Under the pieces are notes generated by a model. The model saw nothing but the letters and a program-made list of their open reading frames with translations, was not told the DNA's origin and ran no database searches. Shown one piece after another: positions 3,782-27,489 of a stretch of 27,503 nucleotides of DNA (within the stretch, counting starts at the first letter, position 1; each line of letters begins with the position of its first letter). The position numbers and the translations under genes were made by a program. The stretch covers positions 1 through 27,503 of IMG/VR virus record IMGVR_UViG_3300009154_004075, one strand, 5' to 3'. The stretch comes from a virus.

Positions 3782-3782
3782 G

Positions 3783-7382: not shown

Positions 7383-7383
7383 G

Positions 7384-7833
7384 TTAGCCTTCGTAAATGG
7401 CCGAGTTGGCACCATGTTCTGCACATTCAACACGCACACAATAACAGCGACCGTGGCTGGATTCTCGTACCAATTTATCAGCAAACTTGAAAGCATGTTC
7501 GGCAAACTTCTCTGCACCCACTCCATCAAAGATACGGATCTCTACTAGATCCAAGGTTTCAAGTTCTTGAAATTTGGCCAGATATGGATCGGCTTGATCC
7601 AAGGCCAACTTATGGTCAAAGTGATCTTCCAACCAGGCCTTGAGCAGTTTGAGTCCGCCAAAGTCCACAGCCCAGTTTTTGTCATCTAAGGTATCGCAAC
7701 CAAATGTAAATGTAAAGGCCAGACTGTAGCCGTGAAGCAAATGACAGTGTGAATGGTCGGCATTGGGCTGTCTAAACACAGCACTGAGTCCAATGTTGTG
7801 TCCGTAGTGTTTTGTAGAATAATATTTTGCCAT
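7384..7833 (-). CDS. queD: 6-carboxy-5,6,7,8-tetrahydropterin synthase (QueD)
   Basis: A 149-residue T-fold protein. CHLLHGYSLAFTF gives the catalytic Cys30 and the LHG block. WAVDFGGLK at 54-62 is the VxDFxxLK motif. FDHKLALD at 72-79 is the Asp-His catalytic pair, and AEHGANSAIYEG ends the protein with the pterin-binding Glu. QueD converts 7,8-dihydroneopterin triphosphate, the product of FolE, to 6-carboxytetrahydropterin for QueE. The usual HGH zinc motif reads HGY here; other histidines at 9, 12, 27, 29 and 31 may complete the site. A clear ribosome binding site AGGAG lies 7 bases before the ATG. A sigma70-like promoter and a T4-late-type element lie within 90 bases upstream, so queD begins a transcript that continues into the glycosyltransferase/radical SAM run and queE. 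Confidence 0.92.
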   Translation of the reverse strand: MAKYYSTKHYGHNIGLSAVFRQPNADHSHCHLLHGYSLAFTFTFGCDTLDDKNWAVDFGGLKLLKAWLEDHFDHKLALDQADPYLAKFQELETLDLVEIRIFDGVGAEKFAEHAFKFADKLVRESSHGRCYCVRVECAEHGANSAIYEG

Positions 7834-7852
7834 TGTAATTCTCCTATGTTAA

Positions 7853-7881
7853 ATTATAGCATAGGCGGCAGAGTTTGTAAA
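7853..7881 (-). promoter_or_regulatory. Sigma70-like promoter upstream of queD
   Basis: Reading the minus strand, TTTACA (7881-7876) is followed by exactly 17 bases and a perfect TATAAT (7858-7853). The queD ribosome binding site and ATG follow about 20 bases later, in the longest gap of this part of the window. It is one of four minus-strand promoters here that share a 17-base spacer. Host RNA polymerase would be expected to use it early in infection, so queD and the genes after it would be made before replication. This is read by eye, with no experimental support. Confidence 0.75.
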
Positions 7882-7913
7882 GCGGGAGTGACGCCCAAGA
7901 CCGCTTGAACAAA

Positions 7914-7921
7914 TATTTATA
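7914..7921 (-). promoter_or_regulatory. Candidate T4-type late promoter TATAAATA
   Basis: The minus strand reads TATAAATA, the exact T4 late (gp55-dependent) consensus, across the last Val codon and TAA stop of the HIT gene. It lies about 80 bases before the queD start and in the same gap as a sigma70-like promoter, so queD could be transcribed both early and late. An 8-base match can arise by chance in an AT-rich gap, and I found no second perfect copy on this strand in a visual scan. Confidence 0.4.
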
Positions 7922-8318
7922 CAGGCTGTTGATAGCCACCAGTTTTATAGTTCTGTTGTGCGGGGATTACACCACGCACACCGCCTATGGGGTTTGCACA
8001 GTCCCCGGCTCTGCGAGGAATCAAATGAATGTGTGGATACATGACAGTTTGTCCTGCGGCCGCGCCTTGATTGATACCAATGTTGTAGGCATCACACTCA
8101 CCAAGAACAACCATGGAGTCGCCCACAGTCTGAGCACTGTAAAATGCATCTGAGATGACCTCGGGGGTGTTGTAGTTGGGCACAAACAACAAATGACCAT
8201 TGGTAACCGGAAAACGATCGCGGAACACAGTGACATGAAAGTCCGACAGTTCTTCTACTCGTAGATCCCAAGGTGCCGCACCTGCGGCGTGTGCTGATTC
8301 TAATGTTTCGTATTTCAT
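7917..8318 (-). CDS. HIT family protein
   Basis: A 133-residue protein with the histidine-triad fold. HVTVFRDRFPVTNGHLLFVP is the N-terminal half, and GAAAGQTVMYPHIHLIPRR carries the triad. The usual H-x-H-x-H reads Y94-P-H96-I-H98, so the first His is Tyr while the catalytic middle His (H96) and the third remain. HIT enzymes hydrolyse nucleotide phosphoramidates or dinucleoside polyphosphates, or transfer nucleotides. The cellular role here is unknown, but the position between folE and queD suggests a link to nucleotide metabolism. I start it at ATG 8318, where it overlaps a small upstream ORF as ATGA. The frame is open to 8423, but that reading covers a differently framed ORF. Confidence 0.85.
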   Translation of the reverse strand: MKYETLESAHAAGAAPWDLRVEELSDFHVTVFRDRFPVTNGHLLFVPNYNTPEVISDAFYSAQTVGDSMVVLGECDAYNIGINQGAAAGQTVMYPHIHLIPRRAGDCANPIGGVRGVIPAQQNYKTGGYQQPV

Positions 8319-8428
8319 ATAGTGATCAAGTGATATTGTGAATGTGGATAATGTTCTTGTAACCATTCCAACAGGCCTGGTTCCGCAGGCAGTTGGATAG
8401 AACCATCGCGGTTGGATATGCAACTCAT
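8315..8428 (-). CDS. Hidden 37-residue ORF between the membrane protein and the HIT gene
   Basis: Minus strand ATG at 8428 to TGA at 8315, 37 residues, starting MSCISNRDGSIQLPAEP and containing LLEWLQEHYPHSQ. Its ATG overlaps the stop of the upstream 63-residue gene as ATGA, and its own stop overlaps the HIT ATG as ATGA. That is the coupling seen at many real gene junctions in this window, and without it there would be a 106-base gap. It has no ribosome binding site of its own beyond the coupling, and I recognise no family. The alternative is a longer HIT reading frame covering the same DNA, but the extra 35 residues do not resemble the HIT N-terminus. Confidence 0.55.
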   Translation of the reverse strand: MSCISNRDGSIQLPAEPGLLEWLQEHYPHSQYHLITI

Positions 8429-8616
8429 TTTTTACTTTTGAGTGTGTGTAGATCTTGCTTCAAACTCTCACTGAGATTTTTGTAATAGTCGAATTCTTGA
8501 CTGACCTCGTCCTTGACTTCATCACGAGTTCGACGATATCGCTGCCAGTCTCGCTCTTGAGCATAGGTAATACCTGCCAAGAATCCTGCTACTATACACG
8601 CAATTTCTAATAACAT
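8425..8616 (-). CDS. Small membrane-anchored coiled-coil protein
   Basis: 63 residues. An N-terminal hydrophobic helix (MLLEIACIVAGFLAGITYA) is followed by a strongly charged helix (RDEVKDEVSQEFDYYKNLSE) likely to form a coiled coil, ending in KSKK. This is the shape of a single-pass inner-membrane anchor with a cytoplasmic helix; no family is recognised. The ATG at 8616 comes three bases after the folE stop and has AAGG about 8 bases upstream. It ends in an ATGA overlap with a 37-residue ORF. Co-transcription with folE is likely. Confidence 0.7.
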   Translation of the reverse strand: MLLEIACIVAGFLAGITYAQERDWQRYRRTRDEVKDEVSQEFDYYKNLSESLKQDLHTLKSKK

Positions 8617-8619
8617 AGT

Positions 8620-9357
8620 TTACCTTGGTGCAAATTCTTGTTGCAGTTTGATGTTGTCAAAGAACTCTTTCTTCACGCCCGGATCGGTCTTGAATACTCC
8701 ATGCAGAACTGTGGTCTGGGTGAGACTACTGTGTGCCATAATACCGCGATTCTCACAACATCCGTGGGTAGCCTGTATATAAACCGCCACATCTCGTGAC
8801 CCAGTGGCAGTTCCAATCTCTCGAGCAATATCCATGCATAGTTCTTCCTGTAAGGTTCCTCTCCGAGCACACCATTGAGCAATACGTGTGTACTTGGAGA
8901 GGCCAATGAGTTTGGCGCCAGCAATAATTCCAATGTAAGCCACACCCGACACAGGTTGGTGATGGTGCGAGCACATGCTCTTGAGTTCTGAACGAACGAC
9001 CAACATGCCTTCGTATGCACCGTCTGTATCATTTGGGAAAGCCGTAGCGTTTGGTGACTGTTCATATCTACCTGCCATTATTTCATTGAAGTACATCTTG
9101 GCCAAGCGTCGGGCTGTGCCCTTAGAGTTGGGATCCGTTTCTCTGTCAATCAATAGCCTGTCTAGTACTGTTTCAAATGCTTCTGTTGCTTCGTTGATCA
9201 GTTGTTCTTTTGTTTGTTCATCTACATAGTCACTGATGTTGTCACCTGCCCAAAAGCGTTTGTTATCACGTCGCATCCGGAAGCGAATGGCATCTGCTAG
9301 ATATGCTTCTTCATAGCCCTTGTCGTCAATGTTGTCAACTGATACTGATTCTGTCAA
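8620..9357 (-). CDS. folE: GTP cyclohydrolase I (FolE)
   Basis: A 245-residue protein. The zinc motif MCSHHHQPVSGVAYIGI gives C129 and H132, and ATHGCCENRGIMAHSS gives C200 with the conserved RGI. GLSKYTRIAQWCARRGTLQE is the usual central block. The enzyme turns GTP into 7,8-dihydroneopterin triphosphate, the first step of 7-deazaguanine synthesis when paired with QueD and QueE, as here. It starts at TTG 9357, with a strong CGGAGA ribosome binding site at the right distance and no in-frame ATG before the conserved region. A consensus-like sigma70 promoter lies about 40 bases upstream, so folE opens a transcription unit with the small membrane protein and the HIT gene. A folate or biopterin role is possible in principle, but the neighbours argue for deazaguanine. 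Confidence 0.95.
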   Translation of the reverse strand: MTESVSVDNIDDKGYEEAYLADAIRFRMRRDNKRFWAGDNISDYVDEQTKEQLINEATEAFETVLDRLLIDRETDPNSKGTARRLAKMYFNEIMAGRYEQSPNATAFPNDTDGAYEGMLVVRSELKSMCSHHHQPVSGVAYIGIIAGAKLIGLSKYTRIAQWCARRGTLQEELCMDIAREIGTATGSRDVAVYIQATHGCCENRGIMAHSSLTQTTVLHGVFKTDPGVKKEFFDNIKLQQEFAPR

Positions 9358-9396
9358 TTTATTCTCCGAGTTATAAGACGTGGATGTCTTTGTTGT

Positions 9397-9425
9397 ATTG
9401 TACTGTATTTAGATTGTGATGTCAA
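9397..9425 (-). promoter_or_regulatory. Sigma70-like promoter upstream of folE
   Basis: On the minus strand a perfect TTGACA (9425-9420) is followed by a 17-base spacer and TACAAT (9402-9397), one base from the -10 consensus. The folE ribosome binding site CGGAGA and TTG start follow about 30-40 bases downstream. The hexamers and spacing are identical to those of the promoter before the sliding clamp gene (19220-19248), while the spacer sequences differ. Confidence 0.8.
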
Positions 9426-9426
9426 G

Positions 9427-10029
9427 TTATTGTGGAGTATAAGGATCATCGATTTGTAACAATCTACAATCATTATAGTCAAAATATTTAGGTTCTTGAT
9501 CAACTGTGGGCAAAAGTTTTGTTCCTAGTTCGCACAATTCCAATGTTGGACAATAGTGATAGCCTGCTTGAAATTTTTGTTGTGCGGTCCAGGGTCGGAT
9601 TCTAAGATCTCTTCCATCACTGCGCATCATGCTCATTTGATCATATGCTGGTTTGTCGTCTAACAGTATAGCACCAACTCGCCCCAGTTGTAAAGGTTTA
9701 GTATTGCCAAAACTCAAACATTGCATTTGACCAGGGCGATACATGTCTTGTTTGAGTAGTCTTGCACTGTCCCAAACTGGTGTGCCCAAAAAAGGATATT
9801 CCCCAACCCATCTTTGCCAGGCATGGTCAAGGTAAGAATATTTGACACCAAGTCTGTGCATCAACATTGGTATACTTAGATAGGTGTAAGGAGTGAATTT
9901 ACATTCGTTGACTCCTAGATATCTAAAACACAATTCGATGGCGCTGGTACATCCGTCTGTTACCACCACATAGGGAGCACCAGTGAATGTGGCTAGTGCT
10001 TGTTCAAATTCAAAAAGTTTTTCATACAT
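9427..10029 (-). CDS. Miniature DegT/DnrJ-like (PLP fold I) protein
   Basis: 200 residues. GAPYVVVTDGCTSAIELCFRYLGV matches the phosphate-binding start of DegT/DnrJ/EryC1 sugar aminotransferases. VWDSARLLKQ (D87) corresponds to the Asp that touches the PLP nitrogen, and SFGNTKPLQLGRVGAILLDD carries the PLP-lysine position (K111). Typical family members have about 370 residues; the C-terminal domain is almost entirely missing here, while frame and ends are clean. It therefore looks like a reduced form rather than a broken one. It may still bind PLP, or act only as a partner or sugar binder. The start ATG at 10029 overlaps the end of the upstream oxygenase by eight bases. Its neighbours include an oxygenase, a radical SAM protein and an epimerase, which fits amino- or deoxysugar work. 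Confidence 0.7.
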   Translation of the reverse strand: MYEKLFEFEQALATFTGAPYVVVTDGCTSAIELCFRYLGVNECKFTPYTYLSIPMLMHRLGVKYSYLDHAWQRWVGEYPFLGTPVWDSARLLKQDMYRPGQMQCLSFGNTKPLQLGRVGAILLDDKPAYDQMSMMRSDGRDLRIRPWTAQQKFQAGYHYCPTLELCELGTKLLPTVDQEPKYFDYNDCRLLQIDDPYTPQ

Positions 10030-10522
10030 TTTTTATTCCGGTGATCTGCATGGTATATCTTGGTTCAAGTCCTAGGTTTCCTACCATATGCGGTACATCA
10101 TAGTTCCATACAACATAATCTCCGGCCGACCAACCGACCAATGGATCATTGTCAATTTCAAAGTAGTGTCCAGATTTCCAATCTTCCATGAACACAATGG
10201 CTCGCCGGATTGTGCCGGTGTCGGTGATATCAAACACTCGCTTGTATGTTATATAATGATCTCGATGCACTGGCAAAAAGTCTCCAGTGTTCATTTGATA
10301 CAGTGCGGCACCGGCGTTGGACCAATTAAACAGTTCGAAAAATCTTTCAGCAAATGGATGCTCGCGCACATCACATACTGCACCGTTGAGAGTTCCTGCG
10401 GTGTAACCTTGCCTAACCCATTCAGCAACCATGTGTTGGTCTTTGTGCGGCAAGTACTGATAGGTGAAACTTTTGTAGTGATCATCCCACCAAGGATCCA
10501 CATGACCTAGTGTGTAGTTCAT
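10022..10522 (-). CDS. 2-oxoglutarate/Fe(II)-type oxygenase-like protein
   Basis: 166 residues on a double-stranded beta-helix pattern. FLPVHRDHYITYKR supplies H86 and D88, VVWNYDVPHMVGNLG supplies the distal H145, and RRAIVFMEDWKSGHYFEID is a core strand pair. A later Arg (EPRYTMQITGI) may bind 2-oxoglutarate. The arrangement resembles aspartyl/asparaginyl hydroxylase-like enzymes. The substrate is unknown; a peptide, nucleotide or sugar is possible. The start at 10522 overlaps the upstream stop as ATGA. An in-frame upstream extension to 10561 would only lengthen the overlap. Confidence 0.72.
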   Translation of the reverse strand: MNYTLGHVDPWWDDHYKSFTYQYLPHKDQHMVAEWVRQGYTAGTLNGAVCDVREHPFAERFFELFNWSNAGAALYQMNTGDFLPVHRDHYITYKRVFDITDTGTIRRAIVFMEDWKSGHYFEIDNDPLVGWSAGDYVVWNYDVPHMVGNLGLEPRYTMQITGIKNV

Positions 10523-10878
10523 TCTGACAGATGATCTTTCTTGATTTCTCGCACCGGGCAAGACAGTTTTTCGGCCATGGCATTCTTGATGCTAACTCGC
10601 TTGTTGTTCCAGTCTCTTATCTTTATGGCACGCCGACCAATTTCTTCAAGTGGAAGTTCGCTTTCTCGACCGGCCTTGAGTTCTTTTTCCAACTCCCAAA
10701 TTTCGTTGTGTATTTGTTCTAGGGTCGACAAGTCTGTCTGAACTAGAGCAAGATCCAAGTGCTGGGCTTGTGTTTGATAGAAATCAAGTTCAGTCTGATT
10801 GTTTCCAATGCGCTGGTGTTTGATTCGTGCTATGGCCAAACGATCCAGCAGTTCAATGATGGGGAATTGTGGATTCAT
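10519..10878 (-). CDS. DUF6165-like helical protein of unknown function
   Basis: 119 residues, nearly all helical and charged. It begins MNPQFPIIELLDRLAIARIK, has LEQIHNEIWELEKELKAGRE in the middle, then EEIGRRAIKIRDWNNKRVSI and EIKKDHLSE at the end. The pattern D-x-L-x-I-A-x-I-K, a short helix around IHNEIWELE, and RAI-x-I-x-x-x-N-x-x-R followed by IK resembles what I know of DUF6165 proteins, which often sit near glycan genes. This assignment is from memory of the pattern. Both ends are ATGA junctions, with the radical SAM gene upstream and the oxygenase downstream, so all are translated in one chain. No catalytic residues can be pointed out. Confidence 0.65.
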   Translation of the reverse strand: MNPQFPIIELLDRLAIARIKHQRIGNNQTELDFYQTQAQHLDLALVQTDLSTLEQIHNEIWELEKELKAGRESELPLEEIGRRAIKIRDWNNKRVSIKNAMAEKLSCPVREIKKDHLSE

Positions 10879-11903
10879 AGATAAAGTTGCTCGATAGTTT
10901 TTGGATTGCTCAAGATTGATTGTATGTCATTGTTGGTTGCATTGGGTCTACAAGGTCGGCACAATGACACATTGGTCTTTTGATAGATATCATTGTGCCG
11001 TGGACTCAACCATAGATCTCGAAAGTCTCCTTGATCCCAGCGTCCGATACTGAAAGCAGGATTGCCTTTGTTGTCGCAACAAACATAGATATAGCCCTCG
11101 GCACAGAATACAGGAAAATGATACATCTGATGGCAGCGTGTGTACTGTCGAGGTTGAGTTTTGTTTTCGTTGATCCAGTAAGGAACGCCAGTGCGTTGAC
11201 TGGCTTGTGAGATCCAGGATTTTATCTCAGGGGTTATGGGATGAGCCTGATTGTTGTAGATTACTGGACGGAAATACAACATACGACCATGTATGTCTTT
11301 CACATAGTCAAACAAGTTGTCAACGGCCTCTTGATTGTCATTGTAGGGATTTATCAAGCATTTGAAATCGACATTTACTCCGGCATTGATGAGTTCCCGA
11401 GCATTTTCTCTCACACGATTGAACAAACTTTTAGATGTCAAACTTCTTCGTATTTTTTCATACAGGTCTTCAGTGCCCGCATCAATGTCTATACCAATCC
11501 AGGCCAACTTTTGAAGTTTGCTCACAGGCACACTGTCTAGCAAGCGATCCAGTTTTGACCCATTGGTTGTGATGGCAGTAAGGAATCCTAGATCAATGGT
11601 GTGTTCTATCACGTGTTCATACCCGGACAGCACAGTAGGTTCGCCGCCTCCGGGATAGGTTATGGTGTGTGTGGTGCCGTAACTGTTGGGTGTGTGTGCC
11701 CTCCAAGAGGCCAACCGGTCCAGGAGATCGATGTATTCAGTGTATTTTTTCTGTACCGGTGCTGCCAATCTATGATCAGCACTGTTGCAGTAATAACAAT
11801 CTTGATTGCAGATGTTGGTTAGATCAATATCTACCTGGGCCGGAAGTATGGCCTTGGTATCTCGATTTTGCATCCAATGTACAAGTTCTGCTGTGTGGTA
11901 CAT
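10875..11903 (-). CDS. Radical SAM/SPASM-domain protein
   Basis: A 342-residue protein. DLTNICNQDCYYCNSADH carries the radical SAM cluster cysteines (C32, C36, C39), YPGGGEPTVLSGY the SAM-binding GGGEP, and TAITTNGSKLDRLLD the next strand. The C-terminal part (CAEGYIYVCCDNKG, SIGRWDQGDFRDLW, SLCRPCRP) is a cysteine-rich SPASM/twitch-type domain binding extra clusters. Family members modify peptides, proteins or carbohydrates. ATG at 11903 is preferred over the adjoining TTG at 11906; it starts three bases after the epimerase stop. Neighbours on both sides are glycan-type genes, so an unusual sugar or protein modification is plausible, but no substrate peptide is visible nearby. Confidence 0.87.
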   Translation of the reverse strand: MYHTAELVHWMQNRDTKAILPAQVDIDLTNICNQDCYYCNSADHRLAAPVQKKYTEYIDLLDRLASWRAHTPNSYGTTHTITYPGGGEPTVLSGYEHVIEHTIDLGFLTAITTNGSKLDRLLDSVPVSKLQKLAWIGIDIDAGTEDLYEKIRRSLTSKSLFNRVRENARELINAGVNVDFKCLINPYNDNQEAVDNLFDYVKDIHGRMLYFRPVIYNNQAHPITPEIKSWISQASQRTGVPYWINENKTQPRQYTRCHQMYHFPVFCAEGYIYVCCDNKGNPAFSIGRWDQGDFRDLWLSPRHNDIYQKTNVSLCRPCRPNATNNDIQSILSNPKTIEQLYL

Positions 11904-11906
11904 CAA

Positions 11907-12854
11907 CTACTTATTGTACCATGCCCACGAATGTCGAATTATATCATCTAGAGTATAGTGTCGCCACTGGCCCACAACGGCAGCAAACTTTTCATCGCTG
12001 GCGGTGAGTACCGCAGGATCTCCTGCACGACGAGCACCCGCTATCACATTCAATGGCTGTTGTGTTTCATCCAGTGCGCATTCAATAATGCCATGATTAC
12101 TTGTGCCCATGTTGCTACCAAGATTGTAAACACCCGGCTCTACTTTTCGATCCAGTGCTAGAATATGGGCACCGGCAATGTCTTCCACATGCACATAGTC
12201 ACGCACACAAGTACCGTCCACGGTGGGGAAATCATTTCCATTTAACACAAAGTCTTTTTGATCTCTAATGCTTTCTAGCACACGAGCAATAATGTGTGTG
12301 GCTTCTGGTGCTTGGCCGTGTCTACCTTGACTGTCAGCCCCACAAGCATTGAAGTAACGAAATGCCACATAGTCCAGACCATATGCTCGATTGTAACTGG
12401 CCAGAATCTGTTCTATCATGAGTTTGCTTTGGCCGTAAGGTGAAACTGGTTCACAAGGGTCCACCTCGTGACACGGCGTCATGATAGGTTCGCCATAGGT
12501 GGCAGCACTTGAACTAAAGATAAATCTTGTTCCGGGCAGACTGTTTTTGACCATATCCAACAACTTCAGTGTCTTGACCACATTGTTGTTGTAGTATTCG
12601 CTAGGGTTATGCATTGAAGGACCCACGAGACTGGTACCAGCACAATGAATGATAGCATCTGGCTGTTTACTAATAATCCAACTCAAGGCTACATCACTAG
12701 CAAAGTCTTGCAACAAGAACCTATCACATGCTCCCAACAGATGCCGGGGAGGTTGTTGTCGATCAATACCATATACTGTATGGCCTGCGTCTTTCAACTG
12801 CAACATGATTTGACCACCAATGTAGCCTGCTGATCCGGTTACTATGATGTTCAT
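11907..12854 (-). CDS. galE: GalE-like UDP-hexose 4-epimerase (extended SDR)
   Basis: A 315-residue protein. IVTGSAGYIGGQI is the NAD-binding G-x-x-G-x-x-G, FIFSSSAATYGEP holds the catalytic Ser region, and SPYGQSKLMIEQ gives Tyr140 and Lys144 of Y-x-x-x-K. RYFNACGADSQGRHG, then GTCVRDYVHVEDIAGAH, and PGVYNLGSNMGTSNHG are classical GalE blocks. GalE interconverts UDP-glucose and UDP-galactose (or the N-acetyl forms). At 315 residues it is slightly shorter than the usual 330-340. The ATG lies one base after the stop of the GT-B glycosyltransferase, which makes it a likely source of that enzyme's donor sugar. The family level is firm; the exact substrate is not. Confidence 0.88.
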   Translation of the reverse strand: MNIIVTGSAGYIGGQIMLQLKDAGHTVYGIDRQQPPRHLLGACDRFLLQDFASDVALSWIISKQPDAIIHCAGTSLVGPSMHNPSEYYNNNVVKTLKLLDMVKNSLPGTRFIFSSSAATYGEPIMTPCHEVDPCEPVSPYGQSKLMIEQILASYNRAYGLDYVAFRYFNACGADSQGRHGQAPEATHIIARVLESIRDQKDFVLNGNDFPTVDGTCVRDYVHVEDIAGAHILALDRKVEPGVYNLGSNMGTSNHGIIECALDETQQPLNVIAGARRAGDPAVLTASDEKFAAVVGQWRHYTLDDIIRHSWAWYNK

Positions 12855-12855
12855 A

Positions 12856-14034
12856 TTAGTACTTGGCTCCTGCTATGTAATCACGATATCTGTTGCCCGA
12901 ACGATTCCATTTCTCTCCAGAACCTTGAATAATATCTACAATGCGATCAACTGTGCCATCATTCCAGTCACTGATACGACCCATACGGGCGTGTGGTGTG
13001 ACTAGTAATGGATCCAACTTGTTCATGGCATCCTCCATGCTCCAGGGAATGTACATTCGTTCAGGATCGTTGGCAAAGGTCTCTGGGAAACTGCGATATG
13101 CTGGATACAATACATTACATCCAAGAGTATCGGCCTCTGATACAGTGTTTGAAACCCAATCTTGTAAAGCACAATTAAACAGCACACGAGTATCGTTAAG
13201 TAAAGCGTAGTAGTCATTTTTGTTTAGATTCTCGTGTATTTCCAACAAGCCAGCGGCTGCCAAGGCTCTAGCACGATACACATAGTCAGGATTGTTTGAT
13301 CTCAGTGGACCACCCGAGAAGATGGCAAATCTTACACTGGGATCAGTAGCCTGATACTGTTCGGCTAGATCCATAAAGAAGCCGGGTTGTTTCTCTTGAT
13401 CAAATCGAGCGGCAAAGCCCACTCTCAGTTGGCGATCATGGAATGGTCTGATGTTGTTGGCACCGTCAATGCGTTCCAGTACTTCTGCCTTGCCAAATGC
13501 TAGGCCACTAATATTGTATATAGGAGCAGTCCATCCAGCAATGCGCATATGAGCAACCATCTCTTCGTTTGTGGCGAGAACTCCTGTCGCAAACTCATTG
13601 ACCATTTGTTCGTAGAGTCCCATCCATTTTGCCATACCCCATACATGTACGAAATCATCAGGATCAATGGACTGAGCAAGACAGCGCACAAATACCTCGG
13701 GACGTTGATTAGCAGGAACTTGATCAAGAATATAGGGCAGGCTCTCGATTCCAGGTTGAAACATGTCTTCAAAGTAGATAACATCTTCACGGGTAACTTC
13801 TCCATTCTTCATGAGTTGAACCAGGTTCATCATCTGGCTCATGCCAAAGTAACTGCGACCGTGTGCGTCCAACACCTGACCAACTGATATGGCCTGTGTG
13901 TTGTCAATAGTAGTGCCAGGAACATACACAACGTCAAGACCTCTGCGGTCAAACACTCGCCGGTTCCACTCTGTTAGTTGTAGTGTATAACGGCCTTGAT
14001 AACTTTCAAGACCCATGTAGTATAGTTTTCTCAT
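12856..14034 (-). CDS. GT-B-type glycosyltransferase
   Basis: A 392-residue protein beginning MRKLYYMGLESYQGRYTLQL. The C-terminal half shows the GT-B nucleotide-sugar domain: LRVGFAARFDQEKQPGFFMD (the GT4-type start of the second Rossmann domain), FAIFSGGP, LEIHENLNKNDYYALLNDTR, then VSEADTLGCNVLYPAYRSFP, where an E-x-x-x-x-G block sits. This resembles GT4-like enzymes, although the usual E-x(7)-E is not clean. The start at 14034 is preferred because AGG lies at suitable spacing; the upstream ATG at 14067 overlaps the oxygenase gene. GalE follows directly, so UDP-galactose or a related sugar is a reasonable donor. The acceptor is unknown; a T4-style DNA glucosyltransferase role is possible but unsupported. 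Confidence 0.8.
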   Translation of the reverse strand: MRKLYYMGLESYQGRYTLQLTEWNRRVFDRRGLDVVYVPGTTIDNTQAISVGQVLDAHGRSYFGMSQMMNLVQLMKNGEVTREDVIYFEDMFQPGIESLPYILDQVPANQRPEVFVRCLAQSIDPDDFVHVWGMAKWMGLYEQMVNEFATGVLATNEEMVAHMRIAGWTAPIYNISGLAFGKAEVLERIDGANNIRPFHDRQLRVGFAARFDQEKQPGFFMDLAEQYQATDPSVRFAIFSGGPLRSNNPDYVYRARALAAAGLLEIHENLNKNDYYALLNDTRVLFNCALQDWVSNTVSEADTLGCNVLYPAYRSFPETFANDPERMYIPWSMEDAMNKLDPLLVTPHARMGRISDWNDGTVDRIVDIIQGSGEKWNRSGNRYRDYIAGAKY

Positions 14035-14047
14035 TGTTTTCCTATGT

Positions 14048-14635
14048 TTACTTAAAATTTGGACCATTGACCCAGCCTACCAAACTGCGTCGTGTGCCTT
14101 GCGTTACTGGAGTAACATCATGAACCATCCAACTGGGAAAAAAGATTACTTTACCTTTTTCTCTTGGTGCCACTTCGGGTTGATTTTTTATGTAGTGAAA
14201 TCTTAAATCTCCTCCTGTGTAGTCAGCATCGTCGGACAGTTGCACACTGAAACTCAATTTTCTATTGGGAAACTGTCGCCCTAGATCCATGTGTTTTTGA
14301 TAGTTGCCATGATTGCCTGCGTTATATACTGTGTATTGTAACGCAGGCAAGTGGGTCAAGTCAAATCTAAAATACTCATTATTGACTCGATTGACGACAT
14401 CTGACAGCGTGGCATACACCCAATCAAAATCTGATTCTATATCATCAGACTCTAACCAGGCAATGTCGCACACACGATAATCCGAAACGGTTCCACTGCC
14501 CACAGTGCTGGATACTTTTTTAACTTGATCGGCTTGACCAACTATTTCGTCAAGTTCAAGATCAGTAAAGACGTTATCCATAACAAGCCAACTGGTGTTG
14601 TCTTTACTAACATTTACCAGTGGCCACTTGGTCAT
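14048..14635 (-). CDS. PKHD-type 2-oxoglutarate/Fe(II) oxygenase
   Basis: A 195-residue protein with the prolyl-4-hydroxylase-like pattern. YQKHMDLGRQFPNRKLSFSV gives H115 and D117. FFPSWMVHDVTPVTQGTRRS gives H172 and the 2-oxoglutarate-binding Arg about ten residues later, and GGDLRFHYI is the intervening strand. It would hydroxylate a protein side chain or small molecule using O2, Fe(II) and 2-oxoglutarate. Such PKHD enzymes are common in aquatic T4-like phages, with substrate unknown. The ATG at 14635 follows the stop of the 73-residue gene at 14639 by three bases. No signal peptide, so cytoplasmic. Confidence 0.85.
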   Translation of the reverse strand: MTKWPLVNVSKDNTSWLVMDNVFTDLELDEIVGQADQVKKVSSTVGSGTVSDYRVCDIAWLESDDIESDFDWVYATLSDVVNRVNNEYFRFDLTHLPALQYTVYNAGNHGNYQKHMDLGRQFPNRKLSFSVQLSDDADYTGGDLRFHYIKNQPEVAPREKGKVIFFPSWMVHDVTPVTQGTRRSLVGWVNGPNFK

Positions 14636-19306: not shown

Positions 19307-20408
19307 CTCTTATGCTAGAGTAGGTACCGGGGCGGCGCAGTTCCATCCAACTGGTGTTGGCATCATCATCTAGATCAAACACTTTTTGGTATCCCAGTTC
19401 TGATGTGTACTCACGAACCAAACGTCCAGGAGTATAACTGCCAAAGCAGTGTTCGACTTTGCCCACTCGATTAGCGATGTCACAGTTGTTGTAGGTAAAA
19501 GCCACGACACCCCCAGGGCGGAGTAAATCAAAACATTGCTTGAGATACTGCTGGAATATAGGCCAAGGTTGATGATCAAAAAAATTAAATGCATAAATCA
19601 ACCCAAATTGATCAGCAGGCAAGTTTTGAAACGCAGGTTGTTTTTTGTGATCTTCAATGACATATTGACGCAGTCTGCGCTGGTACTCAGGAGTAAACCA
19701 CGATTCGGTAAGATTCAACAAAAGACGGTCTGTATCTACAAAATACATAGGATCACATGCCACAAGATCTTGCACATGTAGAGCATGAGCAGGACGAATG
19801 ACCATACACGGATGTCGCCAATCGGTATACAGTCGCAATCTCTGTTGGATCGTTTTCGCGGTAATCGGATCTACATCCATATGTCGATCTAAGACATGGC
19901 TAAGATCAGGAGGTGCAGTACCGATTCTTCTGACTCTAAAACGATTGGTATCTGGAAAAGTAAAACCGTGATCGCCGTGATTTTGATAGTCATGCATTCT
20001 TGCGTTGGCTTCTGCTCGATTATAAGCCCGGAACTGCGAGTCAGGAACAGCACAATTTGTTTCTAAGTCATACAATTCCCATACATCAGGTACGTGTCTA
20101 GTGGTTTCATTGCCACGAACGGATTTATAAAGGTCCATGCTGATTTTAAAATATTCTGGCTCGTATTGTTCAATTAAATTTTGAACTGATAATTTCAATT
20201 GTTCAAATTGTTGTTGGTATTGTTCAACTGCTTGTGTGATCTGTTCATGTGCTTGACACAATTGATCCAGGGCGCCTGGGATTTTTACATCGCTGGCTTG
20301 AACTATATGCATCTGACTCAGGAGTTCATTGAGTAATTCTTCGGCCTTGGGCCCACTGCTGAGAGAATCTAGCAAGTTTTTATAACTAACTATGTCACTG
20401 AGTTTCAT
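19269..20408 (-). CDS. Coiled-coil protein with a methyltransferase-like C-terminal domain
   Basis: A 379-residue protein in two parts. Residues 1 to about 95 are helical and Gln-rich (ITQAVEQYQQQFEQLKLSVQ), likely a coiled coil. The C-terminal half has the order of a class I methyltransferase: DPMYFVDTDRLLLNL, then FGLIYAFNFFDHQPWPIFQQ, and CFDLLRPGGVVAFTYNNCD, the late motif with LRPGG. Motif I (GxGxG) is not seen, so SAM binding is uncertain. It lies between polymerase and clamp, joined to the polymerase by ATGA. That location could imply a replisome link or simple insertion of an accessory gene. The C-terminus may be longer if a frameshift exists near 19300 (see the overlapping stretch at 19208-19306). 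Confidence 0.7.
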   Translation of the reverse strand: MKLSDIVSYKNLLDSLSSGPKAEELLNELLSQMHIVQASDVKIPGALDQLCQAHEQITQAVEQYQQQFEQLKLSVQNLIEQYEPEYFKISMDLYKSVRGNETTRHVPDVWELYDLETNCAVPDSQFRAYNRAEANARMHDYQNHGDHGFTFPDTNRFRVRRIGTAPPDLSHVLDRHMDVDPITAKTIQQRLRLYTDWRHPCMVIRPAHALHVQDLVACDPMYFVDTDRLLLNLTESWFTPEYQRRLRQYVIEDHKKQPAFQNLPADQFGLIYAFNFFDHQPWPIFQQYLKQCFDLLRPGGVVAFTYNNCDIANRVGKVEHCFGSYTPGRLVREYTSELGYQKVFDLDDDANTSWMELRRPGTYSSIRGAQTLAAILQRS

Positions 20409-23065
20409 TCAAAGTCAAACAAGTTGGTAAATGTGTTTTCTGTGTTGGTTGCTGATGCCAGATCCCATTCCAACACACCCAGCAGGTTGTCGACCTTTTG
20501 ATCCACAACTGTGGCTTCCATGAGGCCGTCATCAAATGGCAGTTCAGTAAACCAAGTGGGCAGACGTTGTTCATCTGTGGGATAACCGATACTGGTCCAG
20601 CCCAAGGCATTGGACTTGAGTTTACACACAATAGTTTTCATACCATCCACAATCTGCATTGAATAGTTGTCTCCATTCATTCTGCGCATCTGGTTCCAGT
20701 TCATTGCGGCTCGCACATGTCCTGGCATGTTGGCTTTGCCCAGTCGAGCCTCTTCAGCCGCATACTTGGTCAAATTGTTCACACGCTTGGGACTGCCTTT
20801 CTCCCAACCTGGTCGTTCCATGAACTCATACTTGAACTCACGTATACGTTCCACAATCTCATCCTTGCCAGCACCAGACAGTAGTTTATTTAGGATTTCT
20901 AACAGGAACTCTTGAATAACTCGGGGAGTATCTGAACGCTTTAGGTCAAGTCCTGTGGCCTTGGTTTTGCCAATTGAGCCATTAACATCCAATCGCTTGC
21001 CTTCAATGTCAATGGCATTCACAGCATAACGCTTCTTGGTAATGAACAGGCCACGGTCCGCTACTGTTTCTCGACCACACTTGATCAGTTCACCCATGTC
21101 TCGGGGACAATGGAAAGCCTGTTCCATGAAGCCAGGGAAACTTGAGTTGACCTGCTCAGCAAGGCTGTCATACAGTTGAATACAAGTTTCTTTCGACCAT
21201 GCCATCCTGCCTTCTTCAACTTCCTTCTTGAGTGCCGGCCATGCAGAGAAATAACACGAGTCTGTGTCGCCGTATATGACCGACTTGCCAACGTGATCAT
21301 ATTCGCCTGTGATGCACTCATTGAGATATGCGTCCATGTGTTTTGCAATACTACGACCAGTGAGCGTTGTGGACTGCCCAATACGCTTGTCAAAGAACCT
21401 ACAGCCCGGGTTAAGAATAGCCCCGTAGAGACTGTTGAGGTTAATCTTTTTAACCAACTGCCGTTTGTCCCAGAAAGCAATCTCTTTGGCATCCTTTGCG
21501 TCCTTCTTGCGAGCCTGTAGTTCCTTGCGTTCACTGTACCAACGTTCCAGCAAGCCGGGGATGATACCTTTCTTTTCGTAAGTAAAGATTGTGCCATTGG
21601 CACTGAGTATCCAGGGTTGGTTGGAATCAAACATCATGTGCCATATTTCAGCACCTGAATGCACAGTCTCTTCTCCTGACTGCCAATCAATGGTGATCTC
21701 TGTGCCACGTTGTTGTTCCATCACTGCTGTATATTCCAGGGTGGCAAACAAGCCTTCCCAGGCAGCCGCAAAACTCTGTCCCTTGGCCATGTTGCTTTTG
21801 ATCAAGTGATCAGTCATCACCGGACGCAGTTGTCCTACAATGGTTTCTGGCCCCATGTTGAGCGCACGAATAGCCGAGGGATAGAGACTGTTGATGTCGA
21901 CTGAACCGATCCATTCGTGGACACCTTTCTTGGGATAAGCAACATAGGCACCTGCCGCCTGTGTGTCTTCGTCTGTGAGTCGTTGTCGGCGGTTGGGCAC
22001 AACCATTCCACGTTCATGTGCTTCATTGATAATTGCCTGTTCAGTTACAGCCACCGCTCCCATTGTGGTTTGCAGTAGCACAGTATTGGCGTGAGCCAAT
22101 TCATTGGCCAATTCCAAGAAGCGTAACTTCTTGTCCATCTTGGCGATAAGCATAGTATCTTGACGATTGTATTCGATAAACGTCTTGAAGTGTTGATTGT
22201 ATAAACTATCCAGTGTGCCTTCAAACTGTGTTTTGCGTTCACCCAGTTCGTATTCCGATATGGCATCTAGACTATAAGAATGGCGTTCTTCATAGGTATA
22301 CTTGCGATACAGTTGCATATAGTCCATATGCACCCGACCAATCAAGTCATAGGTTTCATTCTCAGCACCAAAGCGTTCAAACATGCGCTTCTTGGGCAGT
22401 TGATTCCACAAACAAAAACGTCTTGTGTCATCTTTTGACAGCACTCGTGTGGCTCTGTTGATGGTGTAGGGAATATCATAGCCTTCTGAGTTCCAACCTG
22501 TCAGGATGTCTGCGTCTTCAATCAAGTCCAAAAAAGTCTTGATCATTTCAGATTCTTGTTCAAATAGGATTGTGTTTTCAAAGTCAGCCACAAGATCCTG
22601 TGCTGTGGCCCAGGTCATGCTTCTTGGAGGTACTGCCAGGGTTACCAGTTGATCTAGCCAATCTAGATAGACTGAAATTGCAGTAATGGGATTAAAAGGG
22701 TCTGATACAGGTGAGAAGCCGCGATTTTTATCAAACGCCACCTCAATATCAAAAAACGCTGTGTGAAGTTCAGGTGCGTCTTGGTCCTTGTAGTTTTCTT
22801 CAAGGCATCTGAATATGGGATTGATGTCGCTTTCATACAGCGGCCGATGGCTGTGAACGCGGACTTCCTTGCGGAACTCTTTGTTGTTGCGTGTGGAGAA
22901 TCTTGCGACGGGTGTGCCATAGATACTTTGAAACTTGCCTCGGGGATCATCATAGTAGAAGATATAGTTGGCAGGATACTCTCTATACTCTCGTTCGCCA
23001 TTGCGGCGTTCTACCACGTGAATGCGATCGTGCTCACGATCAAATAGTGCGTCAATATAACTCAT
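20405..23065 (-). CDS. Family B DNA polymerase (gp43 type)
   Basis: An 886-residue protein, near the 898 of T4 gp43, with all motifs intact. The 3'-5' exonuclease has FFDIE (D106, E108), TGWNSEGYDIPY around 189-200 and EYNRQDT around 298-304. The polymerase has motif A SVDINSLYPSAIR (390-397 core), motif B KKINLNSLYG (539-548) and motif C IYGDTDSCYFS (598-603 core) with its two catalytic Asp. The C-terminus NTFTNLFDFE is a clamp-binding peptide of the T4 gp43 kind. A ribosome binding site GGAG lies five bases before the ATG. This is the phage replicative polymerase, working with the clamp encoded two genes later. If the DNA carries 7-deazaguanine, it would have to copy a modified template, but nothing unusual in the active site is visible. 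Confidence 0.98.
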   Translation of the reverse strand: MSYIDALFDREHDRIHVVERRNGEREYREYPANYIFYYDDPRGKFQSIYGTPVARFSTRNNKEFRKEVRVHSHRPLYESDINPIFRCLEENYKDQDAPELHTAFFDIEVAFDKNRGFSPVSDPFNPITAISVYLDWLDQLVTLAVPPRSMTWATAQDLVADFENTILFEQESEMIKTFLDLIEDADILTGWNSEGYDIPYTINRATRVLSKDDTRRFCLWNQLPKKRMFERFGAENETYDLIGRVHMDYMQLYRKYTYEERHSYSLDAISEYELGERKTQFEGTLDSLYNQHFKTFIEYNRQDTMLIAKMDKKLRFLELANELAHANTVLLQTTMGAVAVTEQAIINEAHERGMVVPNRRQRLTDEDTQAAGAYVAYPKKGVHEWIGSVDINSLYPSAIRALNMGPETIVGQLRPVMTDHLIKSNMAKGQSFAAAWEGLFATLEYTAVMEQQRGTEITIDWQSGEETVHSGAEIWHMMFDSNQPWILSANGTIFTYEKKGIIPGLLERWYSERKELQARKKDAKDAKEIAFWDKRQLVKKINLNSLYGAILNPGCRFFDKRIGQSTTLTGRSIAKHMDAYLNECITGEYDHVGKSVIYGDTDSCYFSAWPALKKEVEEGRMAWSKETCIQLYDSLAEQVNSSFPGFMEQAFHCPRDMGELIKCGRETVADRGLFITKKRYAVNAIDIEGKRLDVNGSIGKTKATGLDLKRSDTPRVIQEFLLEILNKLLSGAGKDEIVERIREFKYEFMERPGWEKGSPKRVNNLTKYAAEEARLGKANMPGHVRAAMNWNQMRRMNGDNYSMQIVDGMKTIVCKLKSNALGWTSIGYPTDEQRLPTWFTELPFDDGLMEATVVDQKVDNLLGVLEWDLASATNTENTFTNLFDFE

Positions 23066-24028: not shown

Positions 24029-25099
24029 CTACAGCCCTCCTGCAAACCAAGTCTGTGGTAGGGGACGCACCTGTTGCAGACATTCTAAGGCTGTTTGGTA
24101 TTCGGGGTGGGCAGGGTTGAATACATCATGAAATAAAAATTCATCTGTACTGTAAGTACCTACATTAATTATTTTGCAATAATCGACCTGGTCAGCATCA
24201 TAGTTCATGCTCATGTCATAGAAAGATTTCATTTGTTGATAATTTTGTTGCTGTACAACCATACGAGTGTGTAAGGTCATGCCAATTTCTTTTTTCTTTT
24301 GTTGGAGCCAGGACAGGTTATCTAGTATGTCATTCCAGTGGCCCCCTCGTCTGAGACGCTGATATGTGTCTGGCTCGGCAGCATCTACTGTGACAGTTAT
24401 ATTTTCTATCTTTGATTCAATACCTATTATTTTGTGCCAAAACTTCTTGCATAGCAATCCATTGGTTTGAATCCATATTTTCAAATTGGGAAAATTTTCC
24501 GTTTTGATATTTTGTAAAAAATTCAACAGCATGGGGCTAGCAAACAACTCTCCACTGGTACTTAAATGCAAAGTTATAGTTTCGTTAGTCGGATTTAAAA
24601 ATAGATTGTCTGTTAAAATTTTGCCCAACCGCTCATTTCTTTCAACTTCTTCTGGTTTAAGTTTATAAATTGATGTTCTACAACTGGGGCAACTCAAGTT
24701 GCAAGTTTTATCACCGGCTAAAAAAATTTCTTTGGGCCACTTAAATTGATCAGGATGATCAATTGAATCAAGATCCACTGACCCCAGTTGTGACCTTCCG
24801 ACCAATTGATCATTGACAATTACTCCACATCTTTTTTCATTGCAATAATCATAAGTGCCGCGAGTGATTGATCGTCTGATATCTACTGCCAGTGGAGAAC
24901 TTAGCATTGATGTCAAGGAATCCTGTAAAATATTGCCAACTACGGCGCCCATCCACGCAGAACATCCACACATAATCACGTCTCCGTCAGGATCAATGGT
25001 GATGGTACTATATGGCTGTAGACAAAACTTGCCTGCAAAATTTTTGGCGGCAAATTTGGTATAATATTTTTGGTTGGCAGATACGATAGGAATAATCAA
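24029..25099 (-). CDS. Radical SAM protein with an N-terminal SPASM-like domain
   Basis: A 356-residue protein. Its first 100 residues carry a cysteine set typical of a SPASM/twitch region: FCLQPYSTITIDPDGDVIMC, CSAWM and CNEKRCG, with C26, C44, C46, C86 and C91. The radical SAM core comes after it, starting AGDKTCNLSCPSCRTSI (C133, C137, C140), then LHLSTSGELFASP and IWIQTNGLLCKKFW. In most SPASM proteins the order is core first. The reaction and substrate are unknown; peptide or protein modification is a family-based guess. The start is TTG 25099, overlapping the dsbA stop as TTGA. The gene is moderately AT-rich (21 G/C in bases 24481-24540). Confidence 0.82.
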   Translation of the reverse strand: MIIPIVSANQKYYTKFAAKNFAGKFCLQPYSTITIDPDGDVIMCGCSAWMGAVVGNILQDSLTSMLSSPLAVDIRRSITRGTYDYCNEKRCGVIVNDQLVGRSQLGSVDLDSIDHPDQFKWPKEIFLAGDKTCNLSCPSCRTSIYKLKPEEVERNERLGKILTDNLFLNPTNETITLHLSTSGELFASPMLLNFLQNIKTENFPNLKIWIQTNGLLCKKFWHKIIGIESKIENITVTVDAAEPDTYQRLRRGGHWNDILDNLSWLQQKKKEIGMTLHTRMVVQQQNYQQMKSFYDMSMNYDADQVDYCKIINVGTYSTDEFLFHDVFNPAHPEYQTALECLQQVRPLPQTWFAGGL

Positions 25100-25362
25100 A
25101 GTGTCTTGCCCACAGTTTCCAAGATGGTGTTTAACTCGTCATGATCTCGATTGGTCTCGCCCAGTTTGGCCTTGTGAGCAATCTTGATTGCTTTCTTTAA
25201 GGTAGCAGGTTTGATTTCCAATTCTTCTGCAATGGCCTTGATGGTGTCATTTAGGCCTTCGTTCAGTGTGTCAACTTCGTGAAGCACTTGCATGCCTTCG
25301 TTGATCAGTTGGGTGAGTTTGGCTTTGGCTTCGCCGTTGAAAGTGCGGTTATAATCGCTCAT
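25096..25362 (-). CDS. dsbA: DsbA-type double-stranded DNA-binding protein
   Basis: An 88-residue, fully helical protein, the same size as T4 DsbA (89). It begins MSDYNRTFNGEAKAKLTQLI, continues with a second helix around LHEVDTLNEGLNDTIKAIAE, then LEIKPATLKKAIKIAHKAKL (a helix-turn-helix-like piece) and ends LNTILETVGKTL. T4 DsbA binds late promoter regions and modulates late transcription; homologues in cyanophages look just like this. AAGGAG is seven bases before the ATG, and a sigma70-like promoter 20-50 bases upstream drives the gene. Its stop overlaps the next gene's TTG start. Confidence 0.82.
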   Translation of the reverse strand: MSDYNRTFNGEAKAKLTQLINEGMQVLHEVDTLNEGLNDTIKAIAEELEIKPATLKKAIKIAHKAKLGETNRDHDELNTILETVGKTL

Positions 25363-25518: not shown

Positions 25519-27489
25519 TTATGATTGGATGATTTGTCGCAATAACTCTCTGCGACTTTCACGCACAGGAGTTTTTGGCTGTTGTTGCTTGGCTTTTTCT
25601 TGAGCCCGGGCCTTTTGACCCACACGCCGGACCATGGCTTGATATTCTGGACCATAGTCGGCTTCTTTAGGTGGCACATAGTCGTCCTTGGCCTCCGACA
25701 CACCTTGCTCTTTTAAACTTTGCAAATGCTGTGCTAATGATCTGTCACCAATACCACTGGCATTATTATGTGTCCACTCACGTTCAACTGCGGTATCTCC
25801 GCTCCTACTAGTCACTGGAGAACTAAGAGAAATACGACCATGTTTTGGATGCGTCATTGATGCTCCGTACTCACCTTGGTTGTATGCCCAGCCATATTGT
25901 TTTGCTAACTCGGCAGACTCGGTCCGAACACCTTCCGCCATGCCTTTTTTGTCTTTTTTTGCTTTTCTTTCAGCGGCTCTGCGGGCAGTTTCTTGCGGTG
26001 TTACTGTTGCACCGTCGGAGTAATACTTGGCACCGGCACCGTCTTTGGCTTTGTCGATAGCACTTCGTGCTTTTAAGCCTGCTATGGCGTTTCTGAACTG
26101 TCTGGTTGTTTCTATATCATCATCAGTGTAGCCTTCCGCCACACCTTGCTCGATAACATCAACACCGGTTTTGACCTGTGGGCTCAACATGCGTGTGATC
26201 TCACTGGCTTTGTTTTGAATGATTTGCTTGCCGACTTCGACATTCTGTGGAGTAAGTCCACCGGCTATCTTGGCAATTTTATCAACTACAGGAAGCACTG
26301 GACTTGGCCGGGAACCAAATATGCCTTCCGCTACACCTTTTTTAGTATCAAACTGTGCCACAGGCTTACCATTGACCATGGCCATGATAGGTGCGCCCAG
26401 CATCTTGGCCTGTACAAATTTAACATCAGGATATTGTTGTTGGATACTGGCCATCCAGGATTTACGATCCTGGCCTGTGCTTTCTGCCATCTCTTCCTTG
26501 TCTACTGCAGGTGTTGGAGTAGCATTGGGTTTTGGCTTTAATGAGGCCAGCATGTCGGCCTCTGTTCCGAACAATATTGATTCCATTTGTCCAGGAGTTT
26601 TACCAAGCGAGGCACACCAGATAACTCTTAGTGGGTATGGAATAGCATTCCAAAATGCCATGTCTTTTTGTCTCTCTTCAGCCGCTGATTCAATTCCTGC
26701 TTCGCGCTCTAATTCAAGAGTGACAAGATCATAGATGGCAGCCACTTCTTTTGTCATATTCTGTTCTGCACTATGAAAATCATCAGGTCCGTAATATGAT
26801 CCGGTAATTTTTCCACCTAGATGCTGAACTTGGTACCCACTCAGTGCAATAGCATGTTTTTTCCTTGCCGCATTATTGTCAATACCATATAAATCAGTGG
26901 ACACACGCTCAAGGAATTTTTTACCTTGCGGGGTCAACCATAGTGCCGCTTGTGTTGCACTGATTTCGGCCTGGCCCTGTCTGCTTTCAATGTAGGCCAT
27001 TATCTGTGCAATTGCTCTGGTATATGGTCTATTATCGATTACACTAACTGCTCCAACAGGAGCCTGTTGAGAGGCAGGGTCGTTTAGGAAAGGCGAGCCA
27101 AATATCTTATTATCTTGTTGACTCAAGGCCGCAGCCATTTCAATATTACCATTACTGGCCATTAGTTTTTGTTTGGCATACTGTAAGAAACGCTCACGCT
27201 TTTCTGTATCTTCTTCCCACTCATCGGCTTCCGCCAAACGATATGCTGGCAGCATACTTCTAAAATAATGTAATAATTTTTCAGCAACCCGTTCCGGATA
27301 GTCTTCGTATTCTTTACCTAAATTGTATTGTAGTCCATGAAATGCCTGTTGTATATAACGACCAGCAGGGTGCGAAATATTATCGCCTGCATCTACAATT
27401 TGCAAAATAGTATCTTCGGTGAATCCGGGACTGTTTACTATTTTGGCAACTTTCTGTCGCAATGCATTTGCATCCATACTCGGAGTCAT
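25519..27489 (-). CDS. Large modular phage protein with repeated prohead-protease-like motifs
   Basis: A 656-residue protein starting MTPSMDANALRQKVAKIVNS; no family recognised. Residues 1 to about 310 are a helical, folded-looking region (YAKQKLMASNGNIEMAAALS, QGQAEISATQAALWLTPQGK). The rest is modular. KKGVAEG (383-389), EQGVAEG (447-453), KKGMAEG (514-520) and EQGVSEA (594-600) separate pieces of 64, 67 and 80 residues and a 57-residue tail, with a possible degenerate first copy EEMAES at 332-337. The repeated G-[VM]-[AS]-E-[GA] resembles the T4 gp21 prohead-protease site ([IL]-x-E before A or G). This suggests a capsid-internal protein cut into small domains during head maturation. The C-terminal tail is basic (VGQKARAQEKAKQQQPKTPV). 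The start lacks a strong ribosome binding site; the upstream context is cut by the window. Confidence 0.75.
   Translation of the reverse strand: MTPSMDANALRQKVAKIVNSPGFTEDTILQIVDAGDNISHPAGRYIQQAFHGLQYNLGKEYEDYPERVAEKLLHYFRSMLPAYRLAEADEWEEDTEKRERFLQYAKQKLMASNGNIEMAAALSQQDNKIFGSPFLNDPASQQAPVGAVSVIDNRPYTRAIAQIMAYIESRQGQAEISATQAALWLTPQGKKFLERVSTDLYGIDNNAARKKHAIALSGYQVQHLGGKITGSYYGPDDFHSAEQNMTKEVAAIYDLVTLELEREAGIESAAEERQKDMAFWNAIPYPLRVIWCASLGKTPGQMESILFGTEADMLASLKPKPNATPTPAVDKEEMAESTGQDRKSWMASIQQQYPDVKFVQAKMLGAPIMAMVNGKPVAQFDTKKGVAEGIFGSRPSPVLPVVDKIAKIAGGLTPQNVEVGKQIIQNKASEITRMLSPQVKTGVDVIEQGVAEGYTDDDIETTRQFRNAIAGLKARSAIDKAKDGAGAKYYSDGATVTPQETARRAAERKAKKDKKGMAEGVRTESAELAKQYGWAYNQGEYGASMTHPKHGRISLSSPVTSRSGDTAVEREWTHNNASGIGDRSLAQHLQSLKEQGVSEAKDDYVPPKEADYGPEYQAMVRRVGQKARAQEKAKQQQPKTPVRESRRELLRQIIQS
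25690..26343 (-). repeat. Four dispersed copies of a G-[VM]-[AS]-E-[GA] coding repeat
   Basis: Codons at 26343-26323, 26151-26131, 25950-25930 and 25710-25690 encode KKGVAEG, EQGVAEG, KKGMAEG and EQGVSEA. On the minus strand the DNA reads GGTGTAGCGGAAGGC, GGTGTGGCGGAAGGC, GGCATGGCGGAAGGT and GGTGTGTCGGAGGCC, so the nucleotide sequence is also largely kept. The segments between them do not resemble each other, which points to a repeated junction rather than a repeated domain. Confidence 0.8.

Follow-up and report, generated by a model that had tools for sequence, protein, structure and literature searches.

Cassette proteins of large T4-like phages are joined by a short DNA-conserved linker that resembles a prohead protease site

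Why should a single phage protein be divided by several copies of one short motif into small pieces that do not resemble one another? The question is raised by an open reading frame (ORF) near one end of a 27,503-nucleotide virus fragment, IMG/VR record IMGVR_UViG_3300009154_004075, positions 1 to 27,503 (hereafter the window). The original prediction, made from the sequence alone, took four copies of G[VM][AS]E[GA] in this ORF for sites of a protease like gp21, the prohead protease of phage T4, and proposed a polyprotein that is packed in the prohead, cut into small proteins and perhaps injected with the DNA. Both the ORF, which is 5'-open at the window edge, and its sites are confirmed. The real start lies 36 codons upstream in contig L003 (100% identical), where the full protein of 692 amino acids (aa) begins MILNEFFNLPQVFEKDMEEG. 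The motif occurs at residues 385 (GVAEG), 449 (GVAEG), 516 (GMAEG) and 596 (GVSEA), giving spacings of 64, 67 and 80 residues with 57 residues past the last Glu, and the pieces are, by inspection, mutually dissimilar. Composition-preserving shuffles of the protein (20,000) contain a mean of 0.011 sites and a maximum of two, and the motif is absent from the other ORFs of the window. No match to the protein was found in Pfam or PHROG, nor, by tblastn, in 50,697 phage genomes. The explanation that we favour, and regard as probable, is that the product of the ORF is a cassette polyprotein from a large T4-like phage, a single chain of equivalents of T4 internal head proteins that is cut in the prohead, packaged and probably injected.

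The firmest part of this answer is that modules are shuffled at the linker. Proteins built of cassettes with one short DNA-conserved linker between them are found in many large T4-like phages of uncultured bacteria; a chain has up to 10 linker sites, and in hundreds of phage proteins the domains on either side of the motif are non-homologous. In a set of 302 dereplicated ORFs harbouring 657 sites, the internal modules have a median length of 78 aa, and for 74 of the 77 internal module families that recur, the neighbours differ on both sides. The ends of homology alignments pile up at the site (26.7 and 24.7%, against 10.5 and 12.7% at random positions), and one module is common to 17 loci, the sequence past the linker being unrelated. 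The family of the window protein has at least seven module architectures. Its complete members begin with MILNEFFNLPQVFEK and share their last 57 residues, and what lies between varies: the middle of the window protein consists of a large segment and three modules, that of L298 of two modules, that of L295 also of two (one of them different) and that of L292 of three, with a further set in L299. L005 is precisely without module C (Table 1), and its junction, GAGCAAGGTGTGGCGGAAGGTATTCGGACC, combines the left side of one linker with the right side of the next. Amongst relatives of the window protein the crossover falls inside TGGCGGAAGG, and whole modules are gained or lost exactly at the site. 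DNA identity between the window and L298 also differs from module to module (87% in B, 97.6% in D and 83% in E), and neighbouring modules therefore have different histories. Purifying selection acts on modules B and E, with ratios of non-synonymous to synonymous substitution (dN/dS) of ~0.1-0.3. The proposal that the motif marks points of module exchange has thus been demonstrated, both by the changing neighbours and by precise module loss.

Conservation at the DNA level, likewise part of the original prediction, extends far beyond the window. With one ascertained site per ORF left out, 312 GVAE sites remain, of which 211 read exactly GGTGTGGCGGAA, against ~1% expected from the codon use of these ORFs, although collection of the loci via the DNA pattern means that loci rich in exact sites are over-represented. 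The conserved block covers ~20 bp (-6 to +14), with background levels on either side. Matches to a linker 16-mer, AAGGTGTGGCGGAAGG, are found in at least 120 IMG/VR stretches, and 170 of 176 copies are in the GVAEG frame of the longest ORF. The reversed 16-mer, used as a control, finds 34 stretches in all with scattered frames, and a synonymous 16-mer of commoner codons, AAGGTGTTGCAGAAGG, finds only one modular protein family on three contigs. Exact copies of a 13-mer, often clustered, occur in 21 of 22 large motif-bearing records, in which the reversed pattern is absent; three control records have no exact 13-mer, and one of them has a single reversed-pattern match. The excess of exact sites over codon use, together with the rarity of the synonymous version, indicates that the linker is copied as DNA, beyond selection at the protein level. 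Chance as the origin of the pattern was dropped on the reversed and synonymous controls. A longer 23-mer, AAAGAGCAAGGTGTGGCGGAAGG, matches 91 viral stretches and is absent from 84,980 bacterial and archaeal genomes by exact search, which led us to drop a host-gene or prophage origin. A literature search for GVAEG found nothing related. One very large T4-like phage record, G027 (524,565 bases, locus L310), has gp21, gp23 and six exact linker copies in several places.

Does the linker serve recombination only, or is it also cut? In the first case the chain would be a multidomain protein that stays whole, and its likeness to a gp21 site would be incidental. This accords with conservation of the DNA far beyond that of the amino acids, with crossovers inside the linker and with the conserved Q-G ahead of V, which no protease rule requires. 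It does not predict what is retained in diverged homologous junctions, where P3 is hydrophobic in 38 of 44 cases, P1 is Glu in 31 of 44 and P2 is free; nor does it predict the choice of a hydrophobic P3 and a Glu P1 in phages with a scaffold so rich in sites of this kind. The published rule for T4 gp21 is cleavage after L/I-x-E (PMC9026906). Together with the T4-type head genes gp20, gp22 and gp23, the S77 protease gp21 is present in the nearest large genome, G001 (relative L007; 200-kb genome), and gp21 and gp23 are found in 13 other motif-bearing records. Six gp21 homologues aligned to the T4 enzyme retain the catalytic His motif (GEVDHP/GELDHP) and the Ser motif (VSSRG). Six gp22 scaffolds of these phages carry 11-17 [ILVMF]xE[AGSN] sites against ~3 in shuffles, which do not preserve helical periodicity; V stands at P3 in conserved positions, and G011 has LVAEG where its relatives have LVREA. 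The capsid precursors carry YLKE/N, NLLE/N, LLSE/S or HLAE/S (a slash marks the putative cut) just ahead of the mature shell domain, near T4 FLTE/A in a loosely aligned region. Both the protease and the capsid sites to which the original prediction had pointed are therefore present in these phages, and by sequence pattern the linkers appear to fit the protease specificity of the same phages.

Structure prediction bears on the same point. An AF2 model of the full window protein is too poor to use, with a predicted local distance difference test score (pLDDT) of 46, and the usable model is that of one module family with 17 homologues, not a module of the window protein. It predicts a bbbb-alpha domain at residues 20-76 with a pLDDT near 80, and both flanking linkers have a pLDDT below 50 and no secondary structure. 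A motif predicted to lie in disordered linkers around a folded module, and not in a buried strand, is the result expected for cuttable linkers.

A second body of evidence concerns N-termini. The peptide MKTYQEFIAE, with which T4 IPII and IPIII begin, is an experimentally defined capsid targeting sequence (CTS) (PMC9026906). Comparable N-termini, M[RK]xx[ED]F[IL]xE, are found on 17.6% of the ORFs that bear sites; amongst the remaining ORFs of these loci the share is 8.4%, and in control phage loci it is 1.2%. Many separate genes in loci L010-L129 and L301-L478, with or without the linker, begin with MRAxEFIxE, a near-invariant T4-CTS-like peptide that probably marks the internal head proteins of these phages. 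In G001, QG[VM]xE is restricted to a gene cluster at 137-144 kb, several genes of which have CTS-like N-termini, and to one ORF between portal and protease; the ORF between gp20 and gp21, the position of T4 gp67/gp68, carries QGMAED. In addition, a C-terminal module matches two PHROGs called virion structural protein. Packaging via a CTS-like route is, in our estimation, quite likely. The C-terminal module CYYKVKSRYKVWPSAYASGALVQCRKKGAKNWG of some linker proteins is common to >300 phage records, mostly of cyanophages, an example being Synechococcus phage ACG-2014b (L168:3311-4666, AIX17320.1), where gp16 and gp17 flank the gene. A ferritin/Dps-like protein (PF00210, 2.4e-18) is encoded at L007:5693-6133, within a CTS-bearing gene cluster by the modular gene.

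The loci also encode 14 Tat-like signals (RRGFLKGxGAAA), 12 of which have [ILVM]xE no more than 12 residues upstream, compared with 14% for random positions (p = 4e-9). Several of these signals lie 100-900 residues inside an ORF. Tat signals are normally N-terminal, so that internal copies would be understandable were the chain cut at that point; alternatively, the module may formerly have been a separate gene. Signals directly behind [ILVM]xE at module starts are seen in L297:66-707, L315:1897-2415(-), L075:10039-10473(-), L396:6710-7156(-), L029, L053 and L060, and in those loci they also follow CTS-like N-termini (MRATEFVTE/MDRRGFLRGLAGA). Neither the CTS-like N-termini nor internal Tat-like signals right behind [ILVM]xE are predicted if the motif is only a recombination linker, and we judge that explanation unlikely, albeit the most credible of the alternatives. 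A gp21 homologue with its catalytic His and Ser, scaffolds rich in [ILV]xE, CTS-like N-termini, Tat-like signals and disordered linkers are several independent lines from which we infer that the linkers are likely to be cut by the gp21 homologue.

Several observations nevertheless weigh against a cut and packaged chain. The window protein is without the common MRAxEFIxE N-terminus; its family begins with a different-looking peptide, MILNEFFNLPQVFEKDMEE/G, which has LNE, VFE and MEE sites. The window contig itself is without gp21, whose presence is deduced from a relative. Moreover, gp21 is found in 14 of 23 large motif-bearing records and also in three of seven control records, and its frequency in the latter means that it demonstrates availability of the protease rather than association with the motif. 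GVAE and GMAE require a relaxed P3 relative to the L/I-x-E of T4, the extra conserved Q-G at P5-P4 is unexplained by protease specificity, and conservation of P1 and P3 in diverged junctions is good, not absolute. Finally, few modules have a recognisable function. Of the polyprotein originally proposed, the exchange of modules has been demonstrated, and cleavage and packaging remain inferred.

A further possibility is that these are packaged core or scaffold-like proteins chopped by gp21 for removal, in the manner of T4 gp22, gp67 and gp68, with the modules as spacer rather than effectors. The many similar sites in gp22 of these phages and the QGMAED of the core-position ORF agree with it, but the modules are conserved at the dN/dS values given above, at least one is predicted to adopt a compact fold, and some weakly resemble GNAT or Tat-signal domains, a diversity for which spacers have no need; we regard it as improbable. 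The idea that the linker is a target of a site-specific recombinase or homing-type enzyme, or that a diversity-generating system reshuffles modules within one phage population, draws on the short ~20-bp block with sharp edges at exchange points, but is very improbable given that almost every copy has the same reading frame, that copies are mutated at synonymous and non-synonymous positions, that the block is not palindromic by eye and that no adjoining recombinase gene was noticed in the window annotation, in which no search was aimed at one.

A cassette polyprotein cut in the prohead would extend the T4 scheme, in which an N-terminal capsid-targeting peptide precedes a small folded protein freed by gp21, to many proteins per chain. 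Each ~60-80 residue module would be followed by a QGVAE/G linker, a P3-hydrophobic, P1-Glu site like those of scaffold and capsid. The N-terminal peptide would bring the chain into the prohead core; during head maturation the protease would cleave behind each Glu and free the modules; these would remain with the DNA, and at least some would be ejected into the host as early effectors, as are T4 IPI* and Alt. Short-homology recombination would then add, delete and swap modules, the outcome of which is seen in the family. Exchange would be safe for the reading frame because every module is flanked by the same ~20-bp DNA (rAGCAAGGTGTGGCGGAAGGC) in the same frame. Injection and an effector function of the modules, argued by analogy with IPI* and Alt, are about evenly balanced against the contrary. 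Amongst 90 modules compared with known families only weak GNAT, Tat and ASCH matches emerged. For the modelled module, Foldseek found nothing significant in the PDB; of its matches amongst viral models one is a homologue, an uncharacterised protein from an uncultured phage, and the rest are weak. A module of ~150 aa starting YLWHGSR is present in six proteins, e.g. L366:7372-7830(-), L035:11296-11751(-) and L110:2756-3217(-); an ADP-ribosyltransferase-like reading of it, based on motif resemblance, is unsupported by any family or PDB match and was set aside, as was a peptidase-like reading of a SENNN module, which is likewise unsupported and not claimed.

Of the systems already described, the closest are T4 IPI, IPII, IPIII and Alt (Mullaney and Black; PMC9026906, PMC3012670), whose short N-terminal peptide has a gp21-type Glu site at its end, as in the phages studied here (MKTYQEFIAE/A in IPII and IPIII; M[RK]xxEF[IL]xE/ here). 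Product sizes are alike, T4 IPI* having 76 residues (PMC3012670) and the modules a median of 78, and both systems join variable bodies to a conserved targeting or cutting element within a T4-type head gene set. However, T4 internal proteins have one module per gene, in contrast to chains here with up to 10 sites and one DNA-conserved linker, and the cut rule is L/I-x-E in T4 but mostly V/M-x-E here. In the giant phages phiKZ, 201phi2-1 and SPN3US many virion proteins are cut after Glu, at A-x-E or S/A/G-x-E, by a gp21 relative, and several sites per protein are possible in the ejection proteins, as here; these cuts mostly remove propeptides, and the portion of the source consulted contains no account of many small modules being released in series or of shared linker DNA (PMC5694885). 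Polyvalent proteins (Iyer et al. 2017, PMC5512222) are multidomain, predicted to enter the host with DNA, carry GNAT and other effector domains and were explicitly likened to viral polyproteins. They combine large catalytic domains with embedded peptidases, whereas the present proteins have ~60-80 residue modules, a separate virion protease and the same linker at the joints; that hallmark was not seen in the window protein, which gave no Pfam or PHROG match. Work on domain mosaicism (Smug et al. 2023, PMC10684548) similarly reports ongoing fragment swapping between phages and, in the part consulted, does not describe a fixed DNA-conserved joint with the character of a cleavage site.

Besides the modular gene and its parts (Table 1), the window encodes a phage family-B polymerase, a DsbA-like protein and many sugar and radical-SAM enzymes. 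A long run of radical SAM, methyltransferase, glycosyltransferase, epimerase, PTPS-like and aminotransferase genes at 386-14067 suggests nucleotide or surface-sugar modification.

Table 1. Positions of the modular ORF, its sites and modules, and two landmark genes in the window
Feature	Position	Strand	Remarks
Modular polyprotein-like ORF	25519..27489	-	656 aa in window; N-terminal 36 aa past window edge
N-terminal segment, residues 1-388, large module(s), ends with site 1	26326..27489	-	Missing as a block in L298/L005, L292 and L295/L009
Degenerate, weaker fifth site EMAES (GAGATGGCAGAAAGC), residue 333	26479..26493	-	
Site 1, GVAE/G (GGTGTAGCGGAAGGC)	26323..26337	-	
Module B, GIFGSRPSPVLP...VDVIEQGVAE, 64 aa	26134..26325	-	In all MILNEFF-starting family members; neighbours differ
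Site 2, GVAE/G (GGTGTGGCGGAAGGC)	26131..26145	-	
Module C, GYTDDDIETTRQF...KKGMAE, 67 aa	25933..26133	-	Precisely missing in L005/L298; other module instead in L292
Site 3, GMAE/G (GGCATGGCGGAAGGT)	25930..25944	-	
Module D, GVRTESAELAKQYGWAYNQG...KEQGVSE, 80 aa	25693..25932	-	97.6% DNA identity to L298; flanking modules 83-87%
Site 4, GVSE/A (GGTGTGTCGGAGGCC)	25690..25704	-	
C-terminal module E, AKDDYVPPKEADYG...LLRQIIQS, 57 aa	25522..25692	-	Common to whole family
DsbA-like protein, 88 aa (phrog_639/12534)	25096..25362	-	Landmark; also adjoins the modular gene in the 200-kb genome of L007
Family-B DNA polymerase, 886 aa (phrog_262)	20405..23065	-	Landmark; consistent with a T4-like phage

Little is known of the internal proteins of T4-like phages, which are present in hundreds of copies and are the first to reach the host; the best studied of these, T4 IPI*, disables a restriction enzyme. 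It may be, with the chances for and against about equal, that a widespread T4-like lineage uses one 20-bp sequence as both protease site and recombination joint, and so maintains an exchangeable effector library that is cut in the prohead and injected, some of its members bearing a new N-terminal Tat export signal for use in the host. If this is true, the linker is a sequence tag that gives hundreds of candidate injected mini-proteins, with their exact starts and ends, from metagenomes alone, and each module becomes a testable anti-defence or takeover factor. It would also be a concrete example of one short sequence that serves both as protease site and as recombination joint, and this would account for the way in which phages assemble and trade sets of effectors with their reading frames unbroken.
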